The notes under the pieces are model-generated. The model saw only the letters and a list, made by a program, of their open reading frames with translations, was not told where the DNA came from and did no database searches. Positions 26,133 to 56,804 of a DNA stretch of 64,000 nucleotides are shown piece by piece. The stretch comes from Sulfurovum sp. XGS-02. Its GTDB lineage: Bacteria > Campylobacterota > Campylobacteria > Campylobacterales > Sulfurovaceae. Positions within the stretch are counted from its first letter, which is position 1. The number at the start of each line of letters is the position of its first letter. The position numbers were made by a program, and so were the translations under genes. The DNA is taken from assembly GCF_023213175.1 (NCBI RefSeq), contig NZ_CP093312.1, positions 434,001 through 498,000 of the forward strand, written 5' to 3'.

Positions 26133-26280
26133 GAATTCTAAAACTATTTTTAATTTTCTATATATAAAGAAATCTTTCTCCTAAACATTTATCTTAATCC
26201 TTTATATAGATCTTTTTCTCATCATTTTATACATTTAATTAAGCCTATTTTTAGCCTCTTTAAACTATAGTACGGTTTCA

Positions 26281-26383
26281 ACCTCTCGGGGGGCTTTGAT
26301 CATTTATGGAACACATATCTGATACATAGCTGAGATAGCAAATGCTTGACCCGTCGAACTTGAACTGGACAATACCAGCGTAA

Positions 26384-26393
<10 letters not shown>
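26281..26393 (+). ncRNA. TPP riboswitch aptamer upstream of thiC
   Basis: Thi-box core elements are present in order: CTCTCGGGGGGC, GCTGAGATAGC, TTGACCCGT, GAACTTGAACTGGACAATA, CCAGCGTAAGGAAGAG. This is the thiamine pyrophosphate aptamer, with P1 formed by CTCTC at the 5' end and GAAGAG at the 3' end. A TATAGT about 12 bp before the aptamer is a plausible -10. It should lower thiC-thiO-thiS-thiG expression when TPP is high. Confidence 0.95.
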
Positions 26394-28389
<1,996 letters not shown>

Positions 28390-30433: not shown

Positions 30434-30496
30434 TATAACTCTTTTCTACGCTGATTTAAGCATTATAATAGCTTATTTTTAGTATAAGTAGTCATC

Positions 30497-30596
30497 AATC
30501 TCTCGGGGTGCTGGATCTTTTAAGATCTAAGCTGAGATAGCTGAAAAGCTTGACCCGTTGAACTTGAACTGGATAATACCAGCGTAGGGAAGAGAA
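30497..30596 (+). ncRNA. TPP riboswitch aptamer upstream of the thiamine-uptake operon
   Basis: A second complete Thi-box: CTCTCGGGGTGC, a GATCTTTTAAGATC side hairpin, GCTGAGATAGC, TTGACCCGT, GAACTTGAACTGGATAATA and CCAGCGTAGGGAAGAG. It is close to the thiC aptamer in the core but differs in the variable stem. TATAAT at 30464-30469 and TATAAG at 30483-30488 are -10 candidates. Confidence 0.95.
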
Positions 30597-30677
30597 TCGT
30601 ATATAATCTACTTCGATACATTATGTATCACTTTTATCTACTTTTCCTCCCTTTTTTCATATACATATTTTAAGGGG
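30587..30677 (+). promoter_or_regulatory. uptake-operon riboswitch expression platform
   Basis: GGAAGAG inside 30587-30594 can pair with CTTTTCC at 30641-30647 (one G-T pair) or stay in P1. The neighbouring CCCTT (30649-30653) can pair with AAGGG (30672-30676), the ribosome site of the TonB receptor. The competing-helix layout matches the thiC leader although the sequences differ. Confidence 0.55.
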
Positions 30678-30683
30678 AATACA

Positions 30684-32744
30684 ATGAAAACAAAACTTTT
30701 AACTGGTTCTATGATGGCAGCTTATGCATTATTGAACACACCTGCACTTGCAGAAGAGGTAACACTTGATCCAATTGTTGTTAGTGCTGATTTTAGGGAG
30801 AAGACACTTTCTCAAACAACCAATAGTGTTACGATTATAGGAGAAGAAGAAATTTATGATAAAGCTTCACAATCATTTATTGAAGCCCTATCTGAAATAC
30901 CGAATGTCAACTTTAGTACAGGTGCATCTAAAGCAAAATATATTCAAATCAGAGGAATCGGTGAGAGAAGTCAATATGAAACACCGATAAACCCATCTGT
31001 AGGTCTTATCATAGATGGTATTGATTTTTCCTATGCAACATTGGGTGCAACACTTTTTGATGTTAATCAGGTAGAGGTACTTAAAGGTCCTCAAGGAACA
31101 ACATTCGGTGCAAATGGTCTTGCAGGTGTGGTTAGTTTACAAAGTAATGAACCTACAAAAGAGACTGAAGGACATATTGAAGCAACAGTTGGAAACTACA
31201 ATACCAAAGCAGTCGGAGCAGCTATTGGTGGGACACTGGTAGATGATGTACTTTTGGGAAGATTTTCCATTTATAAAAATACCAGTGACGGTTATATGGA
31301 AAACAGCTACTTAAATCGTGATGATACTCAAAATATAGATGAATTGACAGCAAAAGCTCAACTTCGCTGGATGGCATCAGATAATCATACGATTGATCTT
31401 AATGTAATGCATGTGAATATAGACAACGGTTATGATGCATGGACATTAGACAACAGTTGGGATTCTCATTCTGATCAGCCTGGGCAAGATACACAGAAAA
31501 CCAATGCATTTGCCCTTAAGTCAACGTATGAGCTTGATACAATGAGACTGATCTCAAAAATAAGTCATTCATCATCTGACATGACATACAGTTATGATGA
31601 GGACTGGAGTTATGTAGGTGAGTTTGATGCGAGCTTATGGCCATATATGGGATTTGATGAGTATAATCGAGACCAGAAATTAACAGATATAGATATACGT
31701 TTGGTTTCAGATGAAGATGGACGTATCTTCGGTGGTAAAACAGATTGGACAATAGGTGCATACGCGAAAAAATTTGAAGAAGATCTAGACAGATACCATC
31801 CAACCGATTATGGGGCAGAAGAGAATTTTGACAGTAGTTATGAATCAAGAAATATAGCACTGTATACACAGTTAGATACACATATAGATGAGAAACTGAC
31901 TTTTGTAACAGGATTAAGAGTCGAAGATTGGAACGCTGAGTATAGTGACTCTCATAATGTAAATATAGATAATGATGAAGTGATGGTCGGTGGAAAAATT
32001 GGATTGAATTATGCTTATGATCAAAGCACACTTCTTTTTGCAAATATATCTAGAGGGTATAAGCCAGGTGGGGTAAATCCAGGTTCAACACTTAGTGTAG
32101 AAGATAAAACATTTGCCACTGAGACACTATGGAACTTTGAGACTGGAGTGAACTCTTCTCATTTTGATAACACACTAAAAAGCAGATTGAATCTATTTTA
32201 TGGAAAGCGTAATGACATGCAGGTAAAACTGTATGATTTAGCGGGACACAGTTTCACGGATTATCTTTCAAATGCTGCCAAAGGAAGTTATTATGGGTTG
32301 GAATCTCAACTAGATTATTATCCAAATGATGATCTTCACCTCTATTCAAGTATAGGATTATTGAAAGCTGAGTTTGATGAATATAGCCCAGAATTAGAAG
32401 GAAGAGCACCAGCTCAGTCACCTAAGTATCAGTATAATATTGGATTTGACTATGTATTGGCCGAGGCTTGGATATTTAAAACCAATGTAGAGGGAAGAGG
32501 AAGCTATTATTTTTCTAATACACATGATCAAAAATCAGAAGCATATGCATTATTGAATTCTAGTTTAGAGTATACTAATGGTAGTTTTTCTGCGACAATT
32601 TGGGTGAGGAACCTTACAGATGAAGAGTATGCAGTAAGAGGGTTCTTTTTCCCAAATAACCCAGGCAATGGTTACATTGATGAACTTTATACTCAAAAAG
32701 GTTCACCAAGAACATTTGGTTTAACTGTTGCGTATGATTTTTAA
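30684..32744 (+). CDS. TonB-dependent receptor, probable thiamine or precursor transporter
   Basis: A 686-residue outer-membrane receptor: signal peptide (1-23), TonB-box-like DPIVVSA, plug domain (SFIEALSEIPNVNFSTG, IQIRGIGERSQYE, VEVLKGPQGTTFGANGLAG) and a 22-strand-type barrel ending in VAYDF. The family imports scarce ligands using proton-motive force. The TPP riboswitch in front and the ThiBPQ genes behind make thiamine (or a related pyrimidine or thiazole) the likely ligand; this is inference from regulation and context. Next gene after 13 bp. Confidence 0.93.
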   Translation: MKTKLLTGSMMAAYALLNTPALAEEVTLDPIVVSADFREKTLSQTTNSVTIIGEEEIYDKASQSFIEALSEIPNVNFSTGASKAKYIQIRGIGERSQYETPINPSVGLIIDGIDFSYATLGATLFDVNQVEVLKGPQGTTFGANGLAGVVSLQSNEPTKETEGHIEATVGNYNTKAVGAAIGGTLVDDVLLGRFSIYKNTSDGYMENSYLNRDDTQNIDELTAKAQLRWMASDNHTIDLNVMHVNIDNGYDAWTLDNSWDSHSDQPGQDTQKTNAFALKSTYELDTMRLISKISHSSSDMTYSYDEDWSYVGEFDASLWPYMGFDEYNRDQKLTDIDIRLVSDEDGRIFGGKTDWTIGAYAKKFEEDLDRYHPTDYGAEENFDSSYESRNIALYTQLDTHIDEKLTFVTGLRVEDWNAEYSDSHNVNIDNDEVMVGGKIGLNYAYDQSTLLFANISRGYKPGGVNPGSTLSVEDKTFATETLWNFETGVNSSHFDNTLKSRLNLFYGKRNDMQVKLYDLAGHSFTDYLSNAAKGSYYGLESQLDYYPNDDLHLYSSIGLLKAEFDEYSPELEGRAPAQSPKYQYNIGFDYVLAEAWIFKTNVEGRGSYYFSNTHDQKSEAYALLNSSLEYTNGSFSATIWVRNLTDEEYAVRGFFFPNNPGNGYIDELYTQKGSPRTFGLTVAYDF

Positions 32745-54690: not shown

Positions 54691-56079
54691 ATGTCTAAAA
54701 AAATTGCATCTGCAAGAATCTCTGAAAAGAGTTCACAACTCCTACAAGATCTCAACAACTCACTACCATTTGACAAAGTGCTGTATAAAGAAGATATAGA
54801 GGGTTCACGTGCCCACGCCTATATGCTGTGTGAGCAGGGTATCATCTCTAAAGAGGATTATGAGAAGATAGAAGGCGGACTCTATGAGATACTGGGTGAG
54901 ATAGAGTCTGGTGACTTTAAACTGGACGGTGATGATGAAGATATCCATATGGCGATAGAGGGAAGACTGACTGAAAAAGTAGGGGATGCAGGCAAACGTC
55001 TACACACAGCGCGCAGCCGTAATGACCAAGTGGCACTTGATTTCAGACTCTATGTACAGAACAACACAAAAGCCATTGCTGATCTACTTTTAGAGAACAT
55101 CACTACGCTTGTAAAAGTTGCAGAAGAGAATGCTGAGACGATGCTTCCTGGTATGACGCACCTGCAGCATGCTCAGCCTATAAACTTCGGTTACCATATG
55201 ATGGCCTATGCAAGTATGTTTAAACGTGATTATGAGCGTTTTATGAGCTCATATGAGCGTAATAACTACTCCCCTATAGGTTGTGCTGCATTGGCCGGTA
55301 CACCACACCCGATCAACAGACAGACCACGTCAGATAAACTGGGTTTCAATGCACCGACTCTGAACTGTCTTGATACGGTAAGTGACAGAGACTTTGCACT
55401 GGAGATACTCTTTAACATAAGCACGATGATGATGCATATGAGCCGCTTGAGTGAAGAGCTCATCTTGTGGTCTGCGAGTGAGTTTAAATGGGTGACACTC
55501 AGTGATAGACATGCGACAGGTTCTTCCATCATGCCACAAAAGAAAAACCCTGATATCCCTGAACTTCTCAGAGGAAAAACAGGACGTGTAAACGGTAACC
55601 TCGTAGCACTTCTTACTGTGATGAAAGGGTTGCCACTGGCCTACAACAAAGATATGCAAGAGGACAAAGAGGGTGTATTTGACTCTGTAAGAACAGCGAT
55701 ACTCTCACTACAGGTTCTCGAAGAGATGATAGCAGAGATGACCGTCAACAAAGAGGCTATGGAAGCTGCATGTATGATAGGCCACCTCTCGGCAACAGAT
55801 CTTGCAGACTACCTCGTAAAAGAGCAAGGACTCCCGTTCCGTGATGCCTACCACATCACAGGTAACGCGGTGAACCTGGCAGAAGAAAAAGGACTGGACA
55901 TCTCAGAACTAAGCTTGGAAGATCTGCAAAGTGTAGACGCACGCATAGGTGAAGGTGTAATAGCACTACTTGATAACCGTGCCTCCATGAATGCTCGTCA
56001 GTCAGAGGGTGGTACAGCAACTGTGAGGACTTTGGAGCAGGTAGAGAGTATGAAAAGTTGGTTAGAAGGACAAAAATAA
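54691..56079 (+). CDS. argH: argininosuccinate lyase
   Basis: Last step of arginine synthesis, splitting argininosuccinate to arginine and fumarate. The 462-residue protein carries [33 protein letters not shown] and the signature loop [23 protein letters not shown] precedes the ATG. A terminator overlaps its stop. It stands alone, without other arg genes nearby. Confidence 0.97.
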
Positions 56080-56100: not shown

Positions 56101-56129
56101 CTTTTCATAGTACAATGTAATTACTTATT

Positions 56130-56209
56130 AATGTTAAAAGCTAAACTTGTTGTGAAGCAAGGACAGAAAGTCATGGGTCTTTATGGTAAAGATCGCCAGA
56201 CCGCACATT
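56130..56209 (+). ncRNA. c-di-GMP-I (GEMM) riboswitch
   Basis: Closing stem P1 is AATGT (56130-56134) with ACATT (56205-56209). AGCTAAAC leads into hairpin CUUGUU-GUGA-AGCAAG (56146-56161), six pairs with a GNRA tetraloop, which GEMM aptamers use to dock. Then come GACAGAAAGTC, the typical ATGGGTCT, and GGTCT (56176-56180) paired with AGACC (56198-56202), with GGTAAAGATCGCC as probable tetraloop receptor side. The core word GCAAAG of many members reads AGAAAG here, so it is a slightly unusual member. An L,D-transpeptidase starts 85 bp downstream. Confidence 0.75.
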
Positions 56210-56260
56210 TTCTTATATACAGATGGATAGTTCTACCTTCTTTACTCCTCAGTTTTTGAC

Positions 56261-56294
56261 AATGATATGATTTAAACCCAATCAAAGGATCATT
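56261..56294 (+). promoter_or_regulatory. possible ribosome-site hairpin of the c-di-GMP leader
   Basis: AATGAT (56261-56266) can pair with ATCATT (56289-56294), placing most of the ribosome site AAAGGA (56284-56289) in the loop directly before the GTG start. Whether the aptamer controls this helix is not evident. Confidence 0.3.
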
Positions 56295-56804
56295 GTGAAG
56301 AAATATCTATTTTTTTATATCATCACCTCACTTTTACTTTTAGCAAATACTTCATCTTCATCGAAATTCAAGGGTCTCAAAGCAGATCTGGTTACAGTGG
56401 TAAAATCAAAAAGAAAGATGTACCTTTCATGTAAAGGCAAGATCTTAAAAAAATATGACATCGCTTTAGGTGGCAACCCTGTAGGGCATAAGAGAGTAAG
56501 AGGTGACCAAAAGACGCCTGAGGGAAAATATAAACTTGATTATTTCAAACCCAACAGTTCTTTTTATAAAGCTTTGCATATCTCGTACCCCAATAGAAGA
56601 GATCATCAAAATGCAAGGAGATTGGGTAAAAGTCCCGGAGGATCGATCATGATCCACGGACAACCCAATAACAGAGAAATCAAAAAGTCATTTTTCCAAC
56701 GCTATAATGACTGGACTGCAGGGTGTATCGCATTAGAAAATGATGAGATGGATGAAGTCTTACGTCTTGTGAATGTGGGAACCCCGATCCACATTAAACC
56801 TTGA
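56295..56804 (+). CDS. YkuD-type L,D-transpeptidase
   Basis: A 169-residue exported protein (signal peptide about 1-19) with the YkuD catalytic region: His121 in MIHGQPNN and the nucleophile Cys144 in NDWTAGCIAL. Such enzymes cross-link or trim peptidoglycan and in Helicobacter and Campylobacter relatives (Csd6/Pgp2) shape the cell. The start is GTG at 56295 with AAAGGA five bases before. The leader carries a c-di-GMP riboswitch, linking wall remodelling to the motile-sessile switch. Confidence 0.9.
   Translation: MKKYLFFYIITSLLLLANTSSSSKFKGLKADLVTVVKSKRKMYLSCKGKILKKYDIALGGNPVGHKRVRGDQKTPEGKYKLDYFKPNSSFYKALHISYPNRRDHQNARRLGKSPGGSIMIHGQPNNREIKKSFFQRYNDWTAGCIALENDEMDEVLRLVNVGTPIHIKP

Follow-up and report, generated by a model that had tools for sequence, protein, structure and literature searches.

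The leader of a YkuD-domain gene in the window (the whole stretch of 64,000 nucleotides that was analysed) carries a true c-di-GMP-I riboswitch, an RNA of an already known kind. Its aptamer occupies a conserved place before the YkuD gene, and a strand in the linker between aptamer and gene is complementary to the aptamer itself. Taken as a whole, the leader probably acts as a class-I c-di-GMP riboswitch through which translation of a peptidoglycan enzyme of the YkuD family is controlled.

The aptamer was detected as an RF01051 (c-di-GMP-I) match at 56130-56208 of the forward strand, with a score of 51.0 bits and an E value of 5.1e-7 for the 64 kb window searched; the gathering score of the family is 35 bits, and the same search of 14 control genomes gave no RF01051 match. 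This Infernal-type comparison bears out the original prediction of a GEMM-I aptamer before an enzyme gene, and the closing stem, the GNRA-tetraloop hairpin and the core that it named were all found in the leader. Membership of RF01051 is evident from the score, from the pocket bases and from the position in a gene leader near a promoter and a ribosome-binding site. Positions below follow Vc2 numbering, mapped onto the window aptamer with the help of the positions named in PMC3764141. The parts of the aptamer are as follows.

56130..56209, forward strand: c-di-GMP-I (GEMM-I) riboswitch aptamer, RF01051, 51.0 bits
56130-56134 (AAUGU) and 56205-56209 (ACAUU), forward strand: P1, the closing stem
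56140, forward strand: equivalent of G20, the selectivity position, occupied by G in riboswitches for c-di-GMP and by A in those for cGAMP (PMC6456294)
56141..56142, forward strand: C21 and U22, paired with G46 and A45 (56166 and 56165), the swapped pairs underlying AGAAAG
56141-56166, forward strand: P2, including a GUGA tetraloop at 56152-56155 that is closed by a 6-bp stem
56169-56202, forward strand: P3, whose 5' strand includes AUGGGUCU at 56173-56180

The window aptamer shares with RF01051 the three-helix architecture, a GNRA loop and the equivalents of G20, A47 and C92. All of the pocket equivalents (G20, A47, A48, A49 and C92, as listed in PMC3764141) and the C44-G83 contact are retained. 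It departs from the typical member in having C21:G46 and U22:A45 for G:C and C:G, in its GUGA loop, in the absence of an 11-nt-type receptor from P3, and at pair A49:U90, which is A-C in the window aptamer and in most of its orthologues. The one serious rival, the model of a variant family, RF03167 (c-di-GMP-I-GGC), scored 57.6 bits on a 251-base stretch, which exceeds the RF01051 score but is below the RF03167 threshold of 59 bits. The A-rich J1/2 and the short P3 are features in common with this variant; the subthreshold score and the A at position 47, where the model consensus is G, led us to reject the window aptamer as a GGC variant. The unconstrained minimum-energy fold of the leader does not contain the aptamer and is no better than shuffled sequence (z -0.68), and single-sequence folding is thus a poor witness for this leader.

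The window YkuD protein has nine orthologues in the host genus, with 68-95% identity. When the window is included, the aptamer core is intact in eight of the ten leaders, cut by a contig end in one (L212, the 3' part of which is intact) and decayed in one. The association of riboswitch and YkuD gene, first proposed from a single leader, is upheld by this comparison. The decayed leader (L217, in genome G127) has naturally lost the riboswitch core while the rest of the leader still aligns, and represents a ready natural control. A scan with the same pattern detected no GEMM-I core in any of 20 more distant YkuD loci (L220-L239, at most 63% identity), and none of the 21 riboswitch elements of the host genome lies near its two other YkuD genes (near 71-72 kb). 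The gene is flanked upstream by argH, which ends at 56079, and downstream by selO on the opposite strand. Alignment of the orthologous leaders revealed one further element before the aptamer.

56111..56116, forward strand: -10-like box TACAAT

A TATAAT/TACAAT-like box is found about 13 bases 5' of the aptamer in all nine leaders that reach that far, and transcription would be expected to start at about 56122-56125, just before the aptamer. Such a box is present in the 24 bases preceding the aptamer in 13 of the 21 host elements, where upstream blocks give an expectation of 2.0 and shuffles of the same bases one of 6.8. A strict sigma-70 scan of the window leader returned no promoter.

56295..56804, forward strand: YkuD-domain protein of 169 aa with a GTG start (PF03734)

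The PF03734 match (E 5.4e-19, 69.7 bits against 23.4) places the encoded protein in the YkuD family. It has a signal-like helix at the N terminus and an intact HG...TAGC catalytic motif, of which the active-site His and Cys are present in all ten orthologues, and it therefore looks like an active YkuD enzyme. The closest solved chains by sequence are 8ikr (a YkuD-domain protein), Pgp2 of Campylobacter (6xj6 and 6xj7), and 4xzz, the Helicobacter secreted protein Csd6. Pgp2 and Csd6 have L,D-carboxypeptidase activity and determine cell shape; DpaA releases a lipoprotein from the cell wall. The only NCBIfam match was to the DpaA/YafK model, with 49.7 bits for a cut-off of 365. Pgp2, 4xzz and DpaA/YafK share the YkuD domain and are among the best sequence matches of the window protein, but their chains are of 287-339 residues compared with 169. 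The earlier designation of the gene product as an L,D-transpeptidase reflects no more than the name of the domain; the solved relatives Pgp2 and 4xzz are carboxypeptidases, so that transpeptidase activity is putative.

Three elements between the aptamer and the coding region are relevant to the mode of control.

56251..56265, forward strand: anti-aptamer strand, able to form 14 pairs with 56128-56142, the 5' strand of the aptamer, across P1 and J1/2 (the ligand junction)
56284..56289, forward strand: Shine-Dalgarno sequence AAAGGA, kept in 10 aligned orthologues
56259-56266 and 56289-56296, forward strand: hairpin adjoining the Shine-Dalgarno sequence and covering the start codon, in the constrained fold with the aptamer enforced

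The anti-aptamer helix of the window has an energy of -11.2 kcal/mol, which is equalled by none of 500 linker shuffles. With 500 dinucleotide shuffles of the linker for each of the eight intact orthologues, the helix was equalled by 0, 18, 0, 0, 38, 0, 14 and 47 shuffles, i.e., by fewer than 10% in all eight. The register of the anti-aptamer strand differs between two groups of orthologues, and the targeted strand is identical. No anti-aptamer strand was seen in the shuffle comparison at the other 20 host elements (the lowest result was 21 of 300 shuffles), so the platform appears to be particular to the YkuD leader, and one common to all 21 elements was discarded as a candidate.

Control is likely to be translational rather than transcriptional. 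In the proposed mechanism, transcription would begin immediately before the aptamer. Without c-di-GMP, the linker strand would pair with the aptamer 5' strand, the pocket would be broken, and the Shine-Dalgarno sequence and start codon would be more open. With c-di-GMP bound, the aptamer 5' strand would be locked by P1 and the junction, and the freed linker strand (about 56251-56265) would fold onto the Shine-Dalgarno and start region and lower translation. When the aptamer is enforced in folding, the linker strand is released and the adjoining strand closes the start-codon hairpin in the window leader and its sister; in some of the other orthologues this adjoining strand pairs with the Shine-Dalgarno sequence. 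Averaged over the eight orthologues, which are related and not independent, enforcing the aptamer reduced accessibility of the Shine-Dalgarno and start region by 0.095, 0.123 and 0.055 for RNAs ending at +0, +9 and +30, a mean drop matched by 0, 1 and 1, respectively, of 25 shuffled-linker sets. For RNAs ending at +9 there was a drop in seven of the eight orthologues, two of them by 0.02 or less, and a rise of 0.18 in L218; at +0 only four of the eight showed a drop. Folding weakly favors an OFF switch, with c-di-GMP lowering translation, and we consider this direction somewhat the more probable.

It is possible, although doubtful, that the output is the opposite, with c-di-GMP raising YkuD expression through a linker that stays accessible to ribosomes. 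In longer RNA, enforcing the aptamer leaves the Shine-Dalgarno sequence more open in four of the eight orthologues, among them the window (0.45 to 0.70) and its sister. The class includes both ON and OFF switches (PMC9262584), and expression of a transpeptidase operon in Geobacter drops upon deletion of the cGAMP cyclase (PMC6456294). Against this stands the mean behavior of the eight orthologues, in which the Shine-Dalgarno and start region closes upon aptamer formation. Control at the transcript level, through Rho-dependent termination or RNA decay rather than masking of the Shine-Dalgarno sequence, is unlikely. The linker does contain pyrimidine-rich tracts, and anti-Shine-Dalgarno pairing is at chance level in most orthologues, a plain anti-Shine-Dalgarno hairpin having been rejected as the conserved element because it lies within the shuffle range in seven of eight. 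However, the complementarity of the linker is aimed at the aptamer and ends near the Shine-Dalgarno sequence, and no intrinsic terminator was found in the leader, which also disposes of an intrinsic-terminator platform.

The original prediction suggested that the core AGAAAG, in place of the frequent GCAAAG, could shift specificity toward cGAMP. AGAAAG corresponds to 56165-56170, and 56165-56166 are the paired A45 and G46 rather than free pocket bases. It differs from GCAAAG at positions 45 and 46, and the partner positions 22 and 21 have changed as well; from the sequence, the AGAAAG core is best described as a compensated pair swap and not a specificity mutation. All 21 elements of the host genome possess G20, C21:G46 and A47, with the 22:45 pair being C22:G45 in 13 and U22:A45 in eight. 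A pattern scan of 30 loci in the host family (L030-L059) found 36 cores, all with G20 and A47, of which 35 have C21:G46 and one has G21:C46. In named genomes, scanned with a pattern in which positions 21 and 46 could each be G or C, 106 elements among the 122 matches listed are G21:C46, 16 are C21:G46 and none is mixed, and among these matches 21:46 is therefore a covarying pair with one common and one rarer form. The 16 C:G elements among the matches listed also mean that the swap at 21:46 is no novelty. In PMC3764141, positions 21 and 46 are absent from the highly conserved positions while C22 and G45 are included, and it is these latter two that become U-A in the window aptamer. As a separate observation, a motif-based search for the 11-nt-type tetraloop receptor found it in none of the 16 C21:G46 elements and in 50 of the 106 G21:C46 elements among the matches listed, and GAAA loops accompany this receptor among the matches listed (122 elements, L090-L209).

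With G20, A47 and C92 in place, the ligand predicted for the window riboswitch is very probably c-di-GMP. That the ligand is instead cGAMP or another cyclic dinucleotide is highly improbable. The window leader resembles the Geobacter cGAMP riboswitches (GEMM-Ib) in its scaffold, in the occurrence of tandem copies and in the C:G first pair of P2, which is present in the solved one. P2 of the Geobacter cGAMP aptamer begins at the same place with C15-G40, preceded by A14 (PMC6274999), and C15 is among the ligand contacts (PMC7288161); together these facts made the cGAMP idea worth testing in the Desulfuromonadia. In a sample of 244 genomes of this class, to which a Geoalkalibacter genome belongs, with a tally over 150 elements that are among the matches listed and are related rather than independent, the 106 elements with G20 comprised 81 with C21:G46 and 25 with G21:C46, and the 44 with A20 comprised seven with C21:G46 and 37 with G21:C46. 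Among these matches, then, the orientation of 21:46 is no mark of cGAMP recognition and, if anything, the reverse holds. Position 20 is A in Geobacter GEMM-Ib but G in the window and in all 21 host elements, and an A20G change in the cGAMP riboswitch Gmet_0970 confers c-di-GMP selectivity (PMC6456294). The higher score of the window leader with the variant model RF03167 than with RF01051 could be taken to favor another ligand, but the consensus G at 47 of that model is A in the window aptamer. The compensated swap, the presence of G20 and A47, and the Desulfuromonadia tally all speak against a shift to cGAMP. It is scarcely credible that the aptamer is decaying and has lost ligand binding: despite the A-C mismatch at 49:90, an RF01051 score below those of 17 of the 20 other host elements and the visibly lost core of the G127 orthologue, the aptamer is by eye the most conserved part of the leader in the eight intact orthologues, most of which keep the mismatch.

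The host genome (2.19 Mb, one contig) encodes 21 RF01051 matches, all above threshold. The same 21 elements match RF03167, four of them reaching its threshold, and all 21 have A at position 47 rather than the G of that family. Four tandem pairs among the 21 reduce the number of loci to approximately 17, the first open reading frames behind which, assigned mechanically as the nearest, are the following.

Two DUF4382 proteins, three other lipoprotein-like proteins and three PAS proteins
A subtilase, a sensor kinase, an ABC exporter and an outer-membrane barrel
Threonine synthase (start 249 bases away), a GGDEF-EAL protein and the window YkuD protein
Two proteins without a Pfam family

There are 18 GGDEF and 13 EAL matches in the host genome, and c-di-GMP is thus very likely both made and degraded in the host. 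The riboswitch before the GGDEF-EAL gene (L028, near 2038.8 kb) represents a possible feedback on signal turnover. At another locus (L017, near 1254.0 kb on the reverse strand), what appears to be a decayed second tandem aptamer lies about 68-142 bases 3' of the aptamer; its alignment to the L015 aptamer scores 44, the maximum in 200 shuffles being 35. The L017 gene is lipoprotein-like, and tandem copies are frequent among such leaders. Riboswitch matches were found in 106 of 175 genomes of the host family, in 72 of 78 genomes of the host genus among the matches listed, and in 25 of 298 genomes sampled across the phylum; these searches used stricter filters and may undercount, the phylum search giving 14 instead of 21 for the host genome.

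The c-di-GMP-I riboswitches, their tandem use and their dense use in a single genome are already known. G. sulfurreducens has 17 GEMM-I riboswitches, some in tandem, and a lipoprotein-transpeptidase operon is so controlled (PMC6456294); tandem enrichment of c-di-GMP-I riboswitches is described in PMC12452182. A Campylobacter study reports the TPP riboswitch alone among 5' UTRs (PMC3847290), and in the openly licensed PMC literature we found no description of a c-di-GMP riboswitch for the host group. The window also contains two TPP riboswitches, one at 26277-26403 (72.7 bits), followed by a thiC-like gene at 26500, and one at 30494-30607 (78.9 bits), followed by a TonB-receptor-like gene at 30684, both gene names coming from the sequence reading.

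In a GEMM-I aptamer, reversal of the 21:46 pair does not on its own indicate a cGAMP sensor, because it is position 20 that carries the ligand signal. Through the YkuD leader, a peptidoglycan enzyme from the branch of Pgp2, Csd6 and DpaA would be linked to c-di-GMP by a direct RNA switch. The presence of 21 riboswitches in a small genome is an unusually heavy use of this RNA, in a group for which searches of the openly licensed PMC literature found no described c-di-GMP riboswitch. We regard the chances as evenly balanced that this Campylobacterota lineage has a global c-di-GMP regulon run largely by RNA, with as many as 21 GEMM-I riboswitches in a genome of some 2.2 Mb, through which the messenger sets wall remodeling, and perhaps cell shape, on settling. 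If so, the regulon would extend to surface lipoproteins, PAS proteins, a secreted protease, an exporter, a GGDEF-EAL enzyme and a short Pgp2/Csd6-like wall enzyme.
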